From positions 34,194,538 to 34,258,537 of the forward strand of contig CAIIXF020000007.1 of the NCBI GenBank assembly GCA_903813345.2: a stretch of 64,000 nucleotides of DNA. Reading direction: 5' to 3'. A program made the translations under genes and the position numbers. The DNA comes from Owenia fusiformis. Taxonomy: Eukaryota > Annelida > Polychaeta > Sabellida > Oweniidae. The notes beneath the pieces were generated by a model. The model was not told the DNA's origin. It did not search any database and worked only from the letters and a program-made list of their open reading frames with translations. Below are positions 5,080 through 64,000 of this stretch, piece after piece (position 1 is the stretch's first letter; the number at the start of each line of letters is the position of its first letter).

Positions 5080-5147
5080 ATGGCAGACTACAGAAAGATC
5101 CAACACACACTGGGTCTTATGCAGAAGAACCTGGAGTGTTCAATATG
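5080..5147 (+). CDS. BRCA1: BRCA1 exon 1: start and first RING cysteines
   Basis: ATG at 5080 opens [15 protein letters not shown] and runs to LECSI plus two bases of a cysteine codon, which exon 2 completes. This is the ..LECPIC start of the BRCA1 RING (Cys20 and Cys23 here). The start codon is followed by G at +4 and preceded by AAAG. The donor is CAATATG|GTAATG. Read-through would immediately give TGG TAA, so splicing here is essential. Confidence 0.9.
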
Positions 5148-8100
5148 GTAATGTTTGTTCATTGCATTCAACTGTTCATTGCATTCAACTGTTCAATATG
5201 GTAATGATTGTTCATTGCATTCAACTGTTCAATATGGTAATGATTGTTCATTGCATTCAACTGTTCAATATGGTAATGATTGTTCATTGTATTCAACTGT
5301 TCAATATGGTAATGATTGTTCATTGTATTCAACTGTTCAATATGGTAATGATTGGTCATTACATTCAACTGTTCAATATGGTAATGTTTGTTCATTGCAT
5401 TCAACTGTTCATTGCATTCAACTGTTCAATATGGTAATGATTGTTCATTGCATTCAACTGTTCAATATGGTAATGATTGTTCATTGCATTCAACTGTTCA
5501 ATATGGTAATGATTGGTCATTACATTCAACTGTTCAATATGATAATGATTGTTCATTGCATTCAACTGTTCAATATGGTAATGATTGTTCATTGCATTCA
5601 GCTGTTCAATATGGTAATGATTGTTCATTACATTCAACTGTTCAATATGGTAATGATTGTTCATTGCATTCAGCTGTTCAATATGGTAATGATTGTTCAT
5701 TGCATTCAACTGCTCAATATGGTAATGATTGTTCATTGCATTCAGCTGTTCAATATGGTAATGATTGTTCATTGCATTCAACTGTTCAATATGGTAATGA
5801 TTGTTCATTACATTCAACTGTTCAATATGGTAATGATTGTTCATTACATTCAACTGTTCAATATGGTAATGATTGTTCATTGCATTCAACTGTTCAATAT
5901 GGTAATGATTGTTCATTGCATTCAGCTGTTCAATATGGTAATGATTGTTCATTGCATTCAACTGTTCAATATGGTAATGACTGTTCATTGCATTCAACTG
6001 CTCAATATGGTAATGATTGTTCATTGCATTCAACTGTTCAATATGGTAATGATTGTTCATTACATTCAACTGTTCAATATGGTAATGATTGTTCATTGCA
6101 TTCAGCTGTTCAATATGGTAATGATTGTTCATTGCATTCAACTGTTCAATATGGTAATGATTGTTCATTGCATTCAACGTTCAATGTGGTAATGATTGTT
6201 CATTACATTCAACTGTTCAATATGGTAATGATTGTTCATTGCATTCAACGTTCAATGTGGTAATGATTGTTCATTACATTCAACTGTTCAATATGGTAAT
6301 GATTGTTCATTGCATTCAACTGTTCAATATGGTAATGATTGTTCATTACATTTAACTGTTCAATATGGTAATGATTGTTCATTGCATTCAGCTGTTCAAT
6401 ATGGTAATGATTGTTCATTGCACTCAACTGTTCAATATGGTAATGATTGTTCATTGCATTCAACGTTCAATGTGGTAATGATTGTTCATTACATTCAACT
6501 GTTCAATATGGTAATGATTGTTCATTGCATTCAACTGTTCAATATGGTAATGATTGTTCATTACATTTAACTGTTCAATATGGTAATGATTGTTCATTGC
6601 ATTCAGCTGTTCAATATGGTAATGATTGTTCATTGCACTCAACTGTTCAATATGGTAATGATTGTTCATTGCTGCATTCAACTGTTCAATATGGTAATGA
6701 TTGTTCATTGCTGCATTCAACTGTTCAATATGGTAATGATTGTTCATTGCATTCAACTGTTCAATATGGTAATGATTGTTCATTGCATTCAACTGTTCAA
6801 TATGGTAATGATTGTTCATTGCATTCAGCTGTTCAATATGATAATGATTGTTCATTGCACTCAACTGTTCAATATGGTAATGATTGTTCATTGCTGCATT
6901 CAACTGTTCAATATGGTAATGATTGTTCATTGCTGCATTCAACTGTTCAATATGGTAATGATTGTTCATTACATTCAACGTTCAATGTGGTAATGATTGT
7001 TGTTCATTGCACTCAACTGTTCAATATGGTAATGATTGTTCATTGCTGCATTCAACTGTTCAATATGGTAATGATTGTTCATTGCTGCATTCAACTGTTT
7101 AATATGGTAATGATTGTTCATTACATTCAACTGTTCAATATGGTAATGATTGTTCATTGCTGCATTCAACTGTTCAATATGGTAATGATTGTTCATTACA
7201 TTCAACTGTTCAATATGGTAATGATTGTTCATTACATTTAACTGTTCAATATGGTAATGATTGTTCATTGCATTCAACTGTTCAATATGGTAATGATTGT
7301 TCATTGCATTCAACTGTTCAATATGGTAATGACTGTTCATTGCATTCAACTGCTCAATATGGTAATGATTGTTCATTGCATTCAACTGTTCAATATGGTA
7401 ATGATTGTTCATTGCATTCAACTGTTCAATATGGTAATGACTTCATTGCATTCAACTGTTCAATATGGTAATGATTGTTCATTGCATTCAACTGTTCAAT
7501 ATGGTAAATTATGATTGTTCATTGCATTCAACTGTTCAATATGGTAATGATTGTTCATTGCATTCAACTGTTCAATATGGTAATGATTGTTCATTGTATT
7601 CAACTGTTCAATATGGTAATGATTGTTCATTGCATTCAACTGTTCAATATGGTAATGATTGTTCATTACCAATCAGATAGTGTGTAATATGACAGTGAAA
7701 TAATGATCTTTGTTACATCTAATGGACTGACCTGTTCCACAACTGCTGTTTACCTGGTCATTCATTTAGATTCGCAAATGCAAGTAACGCTAGTCGGCTT
7801 CCAGATTAACCTACTATTTTATTGGCAACTTATTTAGATATGAATAGTTCCTGCCACTATTCCATTCATATTTGAATGAGTTGGTCATAAAATAGTAGGT
7901 TAATTCGGTAGCTGACTGGCGTTAGTTACATTCACAAATACAAGGTTAGTTTCAGCCATGCCACTAAGTAGTCTCATTTTTATTTCCAGTCTGGAATTGA
8001 TGAGGTCTCCAGTTTCTACGAAATGTGACCACCAGTTCTGTAAACACTGTATATCAGAATACCTGCAGCATAAGACAAGAGTGAAATGCCCTCTCTGCCA

Positions 8101-61622: not shown

Positions 61623-64000
61623 CTATATCTTGTCATATGTTGTGTCTGTTTTACAACCACTGCAGGTGAACCGGATTCCTTCCTAAAAGCAAAATGTACA
61701 AGTTGTGTAAAATAATTGTAACACTTTCATTATCAACTCATCTTACAAAGATGAGTGCCATTCTTCATATACTACATCTAATGATTATCAAAAATAGTAC
61801 AATGTCTATAAGCCTACTTCATTCTTGCCTCCTGGGAGCTTGCATTTACCAAATATGTGAATTAAACCTACCCGAACAAGTATGGGGAAATCTGTCCAGA
61901 ACTCATAGTTGGGTATCATCTCTACACCTGTTGCTCCACGTATGAACCTCAATATTAAGATTCCACCCACCAGGTAAACTATAACAGCTACCAGAAGCCT
62001 ACAATCATACATGTTCATAATTTGAATCTGGAGTTGACTATAATCATACATGTTCGTAATTTGAATCTGGAGTTGATTATAATCATACATGTTCATAATT
62101 TGAATCTGGAGTTGACTATAATCATACATTCTCATAATTTGAATCTGGAGTTGACTACAATCATACATGTTCATAATTTGAATCTGGAGTTGACTATAAT
62201 CATACATGTTCGTAATTTGAATCTGGAGTTGACTATAATCATACATGTTCATAATTTGAATCTGGAGTTGACTATAATCATACATGTTCATAAATTGAAT
62301 CTGGAGTTGACTATAATCATACATATTCATAATTTGAATCTGGAGTTGACTATAATCATACATGTTCGTAATTTGAATCTGGAGTTGATTATAATCATAC
62401 ATGTTCATAATTTGAATCTGGAGTTGACTATAATCATACATATTCATAATTTGAATCTGGAGTTGACTACAATCATACATGTTCATAAATTGAATCTGGA
62501 GTTGATTATAATCATACATGTTCATAAATTGAATCTGGAGTTGATTATAATCATACATGTTCATAATTTGAATCTGGAGTTGACTATAATCATACATGTT
62601 CGTAATTTGAATCTGGAGTTGACTATAATCATACATGTTCGTAATTTGAATCTGGAGTTGACTATAATCATACATGTTCATAATTTGAATCTGGAGTTGA
62701 CTATAATCATACATGTTCATAAATTGAATCTGGAGTTGACTATAATCATACATGTTCGTAATTTGAATCTGGAGTTGACTATAATCATACATGTTCATAA
62801 TTTGAATCTGGAGTTGACTATAATCATACATGTTCATAATTTGAATCTGGAGTTGACTACAATCATACATGTTCATAATTTGAATCTGGAGTTGACTATA
62901 ATCATACATGTTCATAATTTGAATCTGGAGTTGACTATAATCATACATGTTCATAATTTGAATCTGGAGTTGACTATAATCATACATGTTCATAATTTGT
63001 AGCTGGAGTTGACTATAATCATACATGTTCATAATTTGAATCTGGAGTTGACTATAATCATACATGTTCATAATTTGAATCTGGAGTTGACTATAATCAT
63101 ACATGTTCATAATTTGAATCTGGAGTTGATTATAATCATACATATTCATAATTTGAATCTGGAGTTGACTATAATCATACATGTTCATAATTTGAATCTG
63201 GAGTTGACTACAATCATACATGTTCATAATTTGAATCTGGAGTTGACTATAATCATACATGTTCGTAATTTGAATCTGGAGTTGACTATAATCATACATG
63301 TTCATAATTTGAATCTGGAGTTGACTATAATGATACATGTTCATAATTTGAATCTGGAGTTGATTATAATCATACATATTCATAATTTGAATCTGGAGTT
63401 GACTATAATCATACATGTTCATAATTTGAATCTGGAGTTGACTACAATCATACATGTTCATAATTTGAATCTGGAGTTGACTATAATCATACATGTTCAT
63501 AATTTGAATCTGGAGTTGACTACAATCATACATGTTCATAATTTGAATCTGGAGTTGACTATAATCATACATGTTCGTAATTTGAATCTGGAGTTGACTA
63601 TAATCATACATGTTCGGAATTTGAATCTGGAGTTGACTACAATCATACATGTTCATAATTTGAATCTGGAGTTGACTATAATCATACATGTTCGTAATTT
63701 GAGTCTGGAGTTGACTATAATCATACATGTTCATAATTTGAATCTGGAGTTCACTATAAGCATACATGTTCATAATTTGAATCTGGAGTTGACTACAATC
63801 ATACATGTTCATAATTTGAAACAGGAGTTGTCTATAATCACACATGAAAATATTAATTCACAGTTGGAGACCATTGCTTGCCTACAATCATACATGTTCA
63901 TAATTTTTTGAATCTGGAGTTGTCTTCAACAAATCTTGAAGAATTATTTTTTAAGAAAATTGCTAAATCGTAAAATATGTTAGGTCTTCTGGGATTTTTT
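61623..64000 (-). CDS. Cation-dependent mannose-6-phosphate-receptor-like protein (copy B), 3' part
   Basis: Two terminal exons are visible on the minus strand: 61872-61998 (127 nt) and 61623-61682 (60 nt). They encode LLVAVIVYLVGGILILRF, GATGVEMIPNYEFWTDFP and then EGIRFTCSGCKTDTTYDKI before TAG at 61623. This matches copy A segment for segment, with the same intron phases (one base completing a codon at entry, phase 0 exit) and the same YxxI end. The membrane segment start, the MRH domain and the signal peptide must lie beyond 64000. The intron upstream is filled by a 39-bp array. Copies A and B form a same-strand tandem pair. Confidence 0.82.
62000..63840. repeat. 39-bp minisatellite abutting the copy B acceptor
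   Basis: About 47 units containing AATTTGAATCTGGAGTTGAC then TATAATCATACATGTTCAT. On the minus strand each unit reads ATGTATGATTATAG, the same as the real acceptor ATGTATGATTGTAG|GCTTC; some units carry the exact CTACAATCATACATG form. The unit is a multiple of three and stop-free in one minus frame and one plus frame. The minus frame runs straight into the exon in the correct reading frame. Confidence 0.94.

Follow-up and report, generated by a model that had tools for sequence, protein, structure and literature searches.

Boundary-spanning minisatellites, probably of the amphioxus mirage kind, at exon edges of the annelid Owenia fusiformis, apparently common in its genome

Tandem repeats lying across exon–intron boundaries were named mirages in the Adh3 gene of amphioxus, and were later described in amphioxus genes for globins (BflGb6 and BflGb9), troponin C and PGBD5 (PMC3087553, PMC3902484). 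According to the accessible portions of these papers, the mirage units measure 10–160 bp and regular splicing is reported to be undisturbed; copy-number and somatic instability have also been reported. Here we analyzed a stretch of 64,000 nucleotides from the annelid Owenia fusiformis (contig CAIIXF020000007.1, positions 34,194,538 to 34,258,537; hereafter, the window), which corresponds to C7:34.19–34.26 Mb of the 498-Mb genome that was searched, together with gene loci sampled elsewhere in that genome. Three matches to the erythrocruorin-linker family, which is of annelid type, were obtained in this genome, and twelve contigs of 32–62 Mb make up ~477 of its 498 Mb; COX1 gave no match in the assembly, and GFP, considered as a marker of amphioxus, gave none there or in the control genomes. 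The arrays at coding edges in the window and at these loci are probably boundary-spanning minisatellites of the mirage kind, apparently common throughout this annelid genome, for which seeds containing exonic sequence were favored, tolerated and then expanded. The original prediction, which was drawn from the letters of the window, knew of no described system with this signature; the amphioxus mirages, as the available parts of the two reports present them, are such a system.

Arrays at coding edges in the window

Of the nine locally unique arrays in the window, six lie across or against a splice site, two run across a stop codon and one (55174–55659) is without a known coding edge. The arrays were called with Tandem Repeats Finder (TRF), and the eight at coding edges are listed below with the exons whose edges bear on the text.

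5080–5147, plus strand: exon recognized by its open frame and donor only
5137–7667, plus strand: 36-bp array, about 62 copies, spanning the donor after 5147 (TRF row 5406–7667)
26883–27383, plus strand: 40-bp array, 9 clear copies and degenerate ones, the unit resembling the stretch across the stop codon TAG 26896–26898 (TRF row 27016–27383)
30946–31914, minus strand: 124-bp array, 7.8 copies, spanning the acceptor of the exon that starts at 31028 in the dynactin-2 (dynamitin) gene
42841–42960, plus strand: exon of an STK16-like kinase gene, its 3′ edge copied in the 85-bp array
42884–44074, plus strand: 85-bp array, 14.0 copies, spanning the donor after 42960 of the STK16-like kinase gene, 69 exonic bases per unit
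44850–46504, plus strand: 47-bp array, 35 copies, spanning the acceptor of the STK16-like kinase exon that starts at 46476, 29 exonic bases per unit
46476–46604, plus strand: exon of the STK16-like kinase gene, its 5′ edge copied in the 47-bp array
50836–51452, minus strand: 32-bp array, 18.8 copies, spanning the stop codon TAA 51437–51439 of a mannose-6-phosphate-receptor-like gene
52920–53947, minus strand: 42-bp array, about 24 copies, spanning the donor after 53922 of the same receptor-like gene as the stop codon at 51437–51439
53922–53982, minus strand: exon recognized by its open frame and splice signal only
61999–63846, minus strand: 39-bp array, 47 copies, starting exactly at the acceptor AG of the exon that starts at 61998 in a second receptor-like gene

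All six splice junctions could be located exactly, and they coincide with the coordinates of the original prediction: the donors follow 5147, 42960 and 53922 (the last on the minus strand), and the acceptors precede 31028 (minus strand), 46476 and 61998 (minus strand). It had also been claimed that the unit mostly comprises the splice site together with exonic bases, which is the case in five of the six arrays; the unit of the 39-bp array holds zero exonic bases and only abuts the junction at 61998. At 5147, for example, the 36-bp unit consists of the exon end TGTTCAATATG (11 bases by reading), GTAATG and further intron. The splice dinucleotide was kept in most arrays (GT in 60 of 62 copies of the 36-bp array and in 13/13 of the 85-bp array; AG in 7/7 copies of the 124-bp array and in 34/34 of the 47-bp array), and GT was retained in only 2 of 23 copies of the 42-bp array (2/22 in a second count).

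Homology supports the exons at four of the six splice edges, those at 5147 and 53922 being defined by open frame and splice signal; neither the exon ending at 5147 nor the joined lumenal piece that includes exon 53922–53982 had a Pfam match. The dynamitin exon matched PF04912 (E 6e-34) and the PDB entry for Dynactin subunit 2 (E 8e-26), and the membrane-anchor exon 61872–61998 matched PF02157 (E 2e-9). The kinase aligned with PDB 2buj (STK16; E 3.6e-43) without a break through both joins, the first of which leads to 44236, so that the gene model appears to join correctly at the authentic edges. Within 46476–46504, the authentic STK16-like exon reads SLGG, and the consensus of the 47-bp array and the PDB STK16 chain read SLGC (Gly versus Cys). 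Because the copies and the PDB chain agree on Cys, the intronic copies of this array seem to preserve an older coding state.

Both stop codons named in the original prediction (51437 and 26898) are spanned by arrays. The stretch across the stop codon at 51437–51439 matched the unit of its array at 25 of 26 bases, and had no equal in the window outside the array; the last two exons of this receptor-like gene, when joined, matched PF09451 (E 3e-11) and PF02157 (E 4e-7). The case at 26896–26898 is degenerate, the stretch matching the unit at 17 of 22 bases, a level reached by 7.9e-5 of other positions, and the BRCT-like gene to which this stop codon is assigned was recognized weakly (E 0.017, under the cut-off). 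Two mannose-6-phosphate-receptor-like genes, both with arrays at coding edges, apparently occupy 51437–54846 and 61872–61998 on the minus strand; the Pfam matches in both are limited to membrane and tail exons.

Excess of arrays at exon edges outside the window

Because the exons of the window are incompletely annotated, any excess over chance was calculated for independent loci elsewhere in the genome. Searches of the whole genome gave 60 exon matches for chaperonin, 144 for kinesin and 92 for myosin, and the matches used in the tests were those within the sampled loci (54/60 in nine chaperonin regions, 94.7 kb; 57/144 in thirteen kinesin genes, 76.2 kb; 40/92 in eight myosin genes, 43.3 kb). 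Every kinesin gene with at least four distinct query intervals in 10 kb, and every myosin gene with at least four in 6 kb, was taken; both sets were picked from the match lists before TRF was applied, and genes with long arrays are less likely to satisfy either rule. Twelve of the myosin-head matches, at C9:37986009–37994334, fell on one stretch of the domain (positions ~18–84) within 8.3 kb and probably represent a cluster of alternative exons. Ten arbitrary 8-kb pieces at round coordinates served as "random" stretches. Arrays with a period of at least 15 bp and a length of at least 120 bp were counted, and in the null model a segment of unit length was placed anywhere except where it would lie entirely within a domain-matched exon or cover one completely. 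The chaperonin and kinesin loci held 27 local arrays, reduced to 26 by removal of one overlapping TRF row (index 8), and nine dispersed arrays that were counted apart; the latter include two from locus C11b that may be misflagged, as one matches a neighbouring array of the same locus and the other has a single match elsewhere. When myosin was pooled, its expectation was divided evenly over its five arrays. By eye, 21 of the 26 chaperonin and kinesin arrays, 7 of the 11 local arrays of the random stretches and all five myosin arrays were read.

Twelve of the 26 locally unique chaperonin and kinesin arrays overlapped the edge of a domain-matched exon, against 2.29 expected (P 1.7e-7), which upholds on other loci the earlier claim that placement in the window is far from random. 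The excess was found in kinesin alone (5/10 versus 1.08 expected, P 0.0014) and in chaperonin alone (7/16, P 4e-5), the chaperonin loci being exploratory in that the overlap rule was set after the TRF output was known. Pooling of all three families gave 13/31 versus 2.56 expected (P 1.2e-7), and with all 36 arrays kept, including the dispersed ones and the overlapping row, 12 edge arrays stood against 3.66 (P 7.5e-5). None of the nine arrays with dispersed units was at an edge (1.3 expected). By reading, five more chaperonin or kinesin arrays were placed at edges, where the exon was absent from the domain matches or the array abutted the junction, and one more in myosin (L042); some exons of the arrays thus added were recognized from an open frame alone. 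Examples include a chaperonin donor spanned by 49 copies of a 105-bp unit (5.2 kb), an acceptor spanned by an 83-bp unit and a kinesin donor spanned by a 57-bp unit, as well as a 159-bp unit with more than 100 exonic bases and ~18 copies at a kinesin acceptor outside the sampled set. Young duplications with only two copies also occur (C1a, 154 bp; C8, 86 bp).

The distances of the 26 arrays to the nearest exon match (overlap, 12; 1–100 bp, 3; 101–500 bp, 4; farther, 7) suggest that exonic sequence takes part in the process, and not mere nearness to an exon. Every edge array that was read leaves one intact edge, and none of the 12 overlapping arrays lay wholly within an exon match. A 92-base query with the 85-bp unit gave 14 matches genome-wide, all in its own array, among the candidates scored; the other edge units were local in origin as checked against 315 kb of sampled sequence. 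Local arrays occurred at 15.8 per 100 kb in the gene loci, 13.8 in the random stretches and 14.1 in the window.

Repeats of other kinds were also observed. Five further arrays of the window have units that match other places in the 315 kb of sampled sequence. The arrays 534–720, 36577–36739 and 37665–37900 were flagged as dispersed; they share a period of 57 bp and resemble one another in unit sequence (CATGACCGTGGTAATG... or its complement). A 135/282-bp tandem repeat at 25937–26470 has a consensus that starts like that of the L034 array, and thus belongs to a dispersed family. On the minus strand, 49219–49716 holds the remnant of a transposase-like open frame with an WFQQDGATPHTS motif, which we take to be of the mariner type. 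At 1949–2335 of L012 (C222) lies a dispersed repeat of ~330 bp, often tandemly duplicated, with at least 146 matches in the best 40 of 4106 candidates. A tRNA search of the genome gave 33 matches, many of them in tandem clusters such as C8:34960255–34961791 (~366-bp spacing) and C7:7130645–7133382 (partly ~236 bp).

Proposed origin and tolerance of the arrays

Features that bear on mechanism were collected from 24 hand-picked junctions over all loci, 31028 being left out. Donors and acceptors were equally represented (12 each; three and three in the window), and the exonic share of the unit was compatible with a uniform distribution (Kolmogorov–Smirnov p 0.28), the values of zero for the 28-bp array of C11b and of 2 at 5147 (11 by reading) being artefacts of step choice. 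Both properties are expected if the duplicated segment lands randomly across an edge. Seventeen array-bearing edges did not differ from 197 others in exon GC (guanine plus cytosine) content, intron GC content, GC step or donor match.

These observations led us to the following three-step scheme, as part of the explanation that we consider probable. First, a tandem duplication of ~30–160 bp would arise in segments with exonic sequence about 5 times more often than under uniform seeding. Second, selection would purge duplications lying wholly inside exons, because they alter the protein; a duplication that crosses one edge, be it a donor, an acceptor or the coding end, would keep an intact edge beside the exon and send its surplus copies into the intron or the 3′ untranslated region, and would survive since one intact edge is regenerated. 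The arrays that were read fit this step. Third, ordinary minisatellite turnover would raise the duplication to tens of copies, the number that is seen in the arrays. Splice sites in the copies would then be mainly passengers, because their retention is at most slightly above that of neighbouring bases (16 arrays) and one array is nearly without GT. Candidates for the better seeding by exons are template switching at the end of allelic homology and an exon-specific effect of chromatin or transcription. For the former, we tentatively suggest that in very polymorphic animals homologous repair or replication may set out from a conserved exon and run out of homology on reaching divergent allelic sequence, at the exon edge or the coding end; the invading strand would then switch template, with a tandem duplication spanning the edge as the result. 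Such a process, although more likely wrong than right, would account alike for arrays at donors, at acceptors and at stop codons, for the lack of an effect of splice strength, and for the occurrence in both amphioxus and worm. Amphioxus heterozygosity is 3.2–4.2% in the consulted part of one report (PMC12862219).

Another reading is a process specific to splice junctions, in which the spliceosome, U1, an R-loop or polymerase pausing at the junction triggers duplication; the original prediction had suggested expansion at exon–intron junctions through, for example, replication or repair slippage helped by R-loops or co-transcriptional structure. All chaperonin and kinesin edge arrays that were read are indeed at splice junctions (stop codons were not searched there), and three arrays start at or within 4 bp of a junction (window 61998, L017 951 and C222 11769). 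Two arrays of the window lie across stop codons, however, donors and acceptors are hit equally, the position of the junction in the unit is compatible with a random one, and donor match and GC step are the same with and without arrays. We therefore consider a splice-directed process unlikely; the comparison of 17 with 197 edges gives no support to a GC step or R-loops as a possible cause.

Alternatively, seeding could be uniform and the pattern due to purifying selection only, edge-crossing duplications being as tolerable as intronic ones. The one intact edge of every edge array read, the lack of arrays wholly inside exon matches and the exonic share of the units all agree with this view. On the other hand, uniform seeding predicts 2.3 of 26 arrays at edges where 12 are seen, and the similar array densities of gene loci and random stretches indicate that non-exonic DNA acquires arrays too, which makes uniform seeding a doubtful account. 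Thus, the idea that expansion is tolerated only where a splice site is regenerated, also raised in the original prediction, is supported as far as the regenerated edge is a necessary condition, and fails as a sufficient one.

Several results weigh against favored seeding followed by passive expansion. Myosin alone gave 1 edge array in 5 (P 0.24, non-significant), and only 2 of the 11 local arrays in the random stretches were clearly at exon edges (L030 and L032), in exons that are unannotated there and whose domain matches (E 0.015 and 0.019) are below family cut-offs. The edge set was built from Pfam matches and is hence incomplete. Counted per base, the excess was reversed (12/208 edges tandem versus 2954/20057 intron positions), since a single seed can spread over kilobases of intron; the per-base measure was therefore dropped for seeding, and the claim rests on array counts. 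No age gradient away from the exon was found (7/10, p 0.34). In 14 of 16 arrays every copy had an intact splice dinucleotide, where random pairs of nearby bases would give 11.7 such arrays (P 0.08; by mean rank, P 0.06; by a naive sign test, p 0.006). In the same 16 arrays, the exonic part of the copies had fewer changes per site than the intronic part (0.017 versus 0.041, Wilcoxon p 0.051) and fewer indels (0.0008 versus 0.0060, Wilcoxon p 0.002). Neither the dinucleotide retention nor the steadier exonic part is obviously predicted for pure passengers, and the latter could reflect low indel-proneness, repeated descent from the constrained authentic copy, or selection on the copies. Homogeneity of the copies nearest the exon, considered as a sign of polar growth, disappeared once the terminal copy was excluded.

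The retention of intact AG and GT would also fit positive selection for redundant splice sites, with copies that back up or tune splicing. Since the excess is weak, GT is gone from all but 2 of the 23 copies in the 42-bp array, and array-bearing donors are no weaker than others, such selection seems a poor candidate. Even less probable is the birth of introns from arrays, in which an exonic tandem duplication carrying AGGT made the intron, so that array and intron are one and the same. That introns can be gained by tandem genomic duplication is accepted in the consulted part of PMC3443670, and the amphioxus authors proposed it for mirages (PMC3087553, in part); nevertheless, both kinase introns, each read from end to end, have non-repeated sequence opposite an array that touches a single exon, and the units hold intron-like sequence, e.g., TTATTTCAG. 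Transposon-borne satellites or assembly artefacts are hardly credible: dispersed tandem families are present in the genome, but the genome-wide matches scored for the 85-bp unit all lie in its own array and the other units are local within the 315 kb of sampled sequence, the units carry coding bases of the local gene, the copies show interleaved variants, and similar amphioxus structures were seen in two haplotypes and after resequencing, according to the available parts of PMC3087553 and PMC3902484.

Significance and comparison with known systems

If exon-favored, edge-tolerated seeding holds genome-wide, a large share of the unique minisatellites of this animal would be copies of its own exon edges, and mirages would be a general animal mutational pattern instead of a lancelet oddity. 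The arrays would then offer many natural replicates for studying the birth of tandem repeats. They would also be a source of new introns and of cryptic splice sites, and would preserve coding edges as fossils. Any annotated genome would be open to the same test, by which the cause, whether exon-favored seeding, the end of homology or selection, could be addressed. If template switching at the end of homology is the cause, minisatellite positions would mark the points at which homology between alleles stops.

Human introns are reportedly derived from tandem arrays, to judge by the title of a 2007 paper by Zhuo et al. Among the systems known in more detail, transposable-element satellites have a dispersed unit at many loci, a pattern absent here for the 85-bp unit genome-wide and for the other units in the 315 kb of sampled sequence. 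The CeRep25B minisatellites of C. elegans likewise lie in introns, and are linked to splicing; however, in the part of the report consulted (PMC4039745), one repeat occurs at many introns, whereas here each array holds private copies of a local exon edge. Intron gain through AGGT likewise involves a tandemly duplicated gene segment, by which splice sites are added (PMC3443670, in the accessible part), but there the new intron forms inside an exon, while here copies of an existing edge extend an intron that is already present; in neither kinase intron is the array bordered by exon copies at both ends, as a new intron would be.

The closest counterpart is the amphioxus mirage. Five of the six window arrays at splice sites likewise combine exonic and intronic bases across the boundary, the array at 61998 being borderline; here, donors and acceptors are both affected, and the units derive from the local gene. 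As to copy number, the single haploid assembly yielded neither another C222 locus nor a further 85-bp array among the matches scored. The two stop-codon arrays are not classed as mirages, because the copied boundary is not a splice junction, although they look like mirages and may work like them. No reports of mirage-like arrays outside amphioxus were found among the listed titles and abstract openings of open-licence papers, which is no proof of absence. The arrays of O. fusiformis differ from the amphioxus mirages in their annelid host, in their occurrence on many chromosomes, in lengths of up to 5.2 kb, in the involvement of stop codons and in the quantification of the excess; of these features, the annelid host and the scale seem to be new, as do the quantified excess and the use of stop codons.

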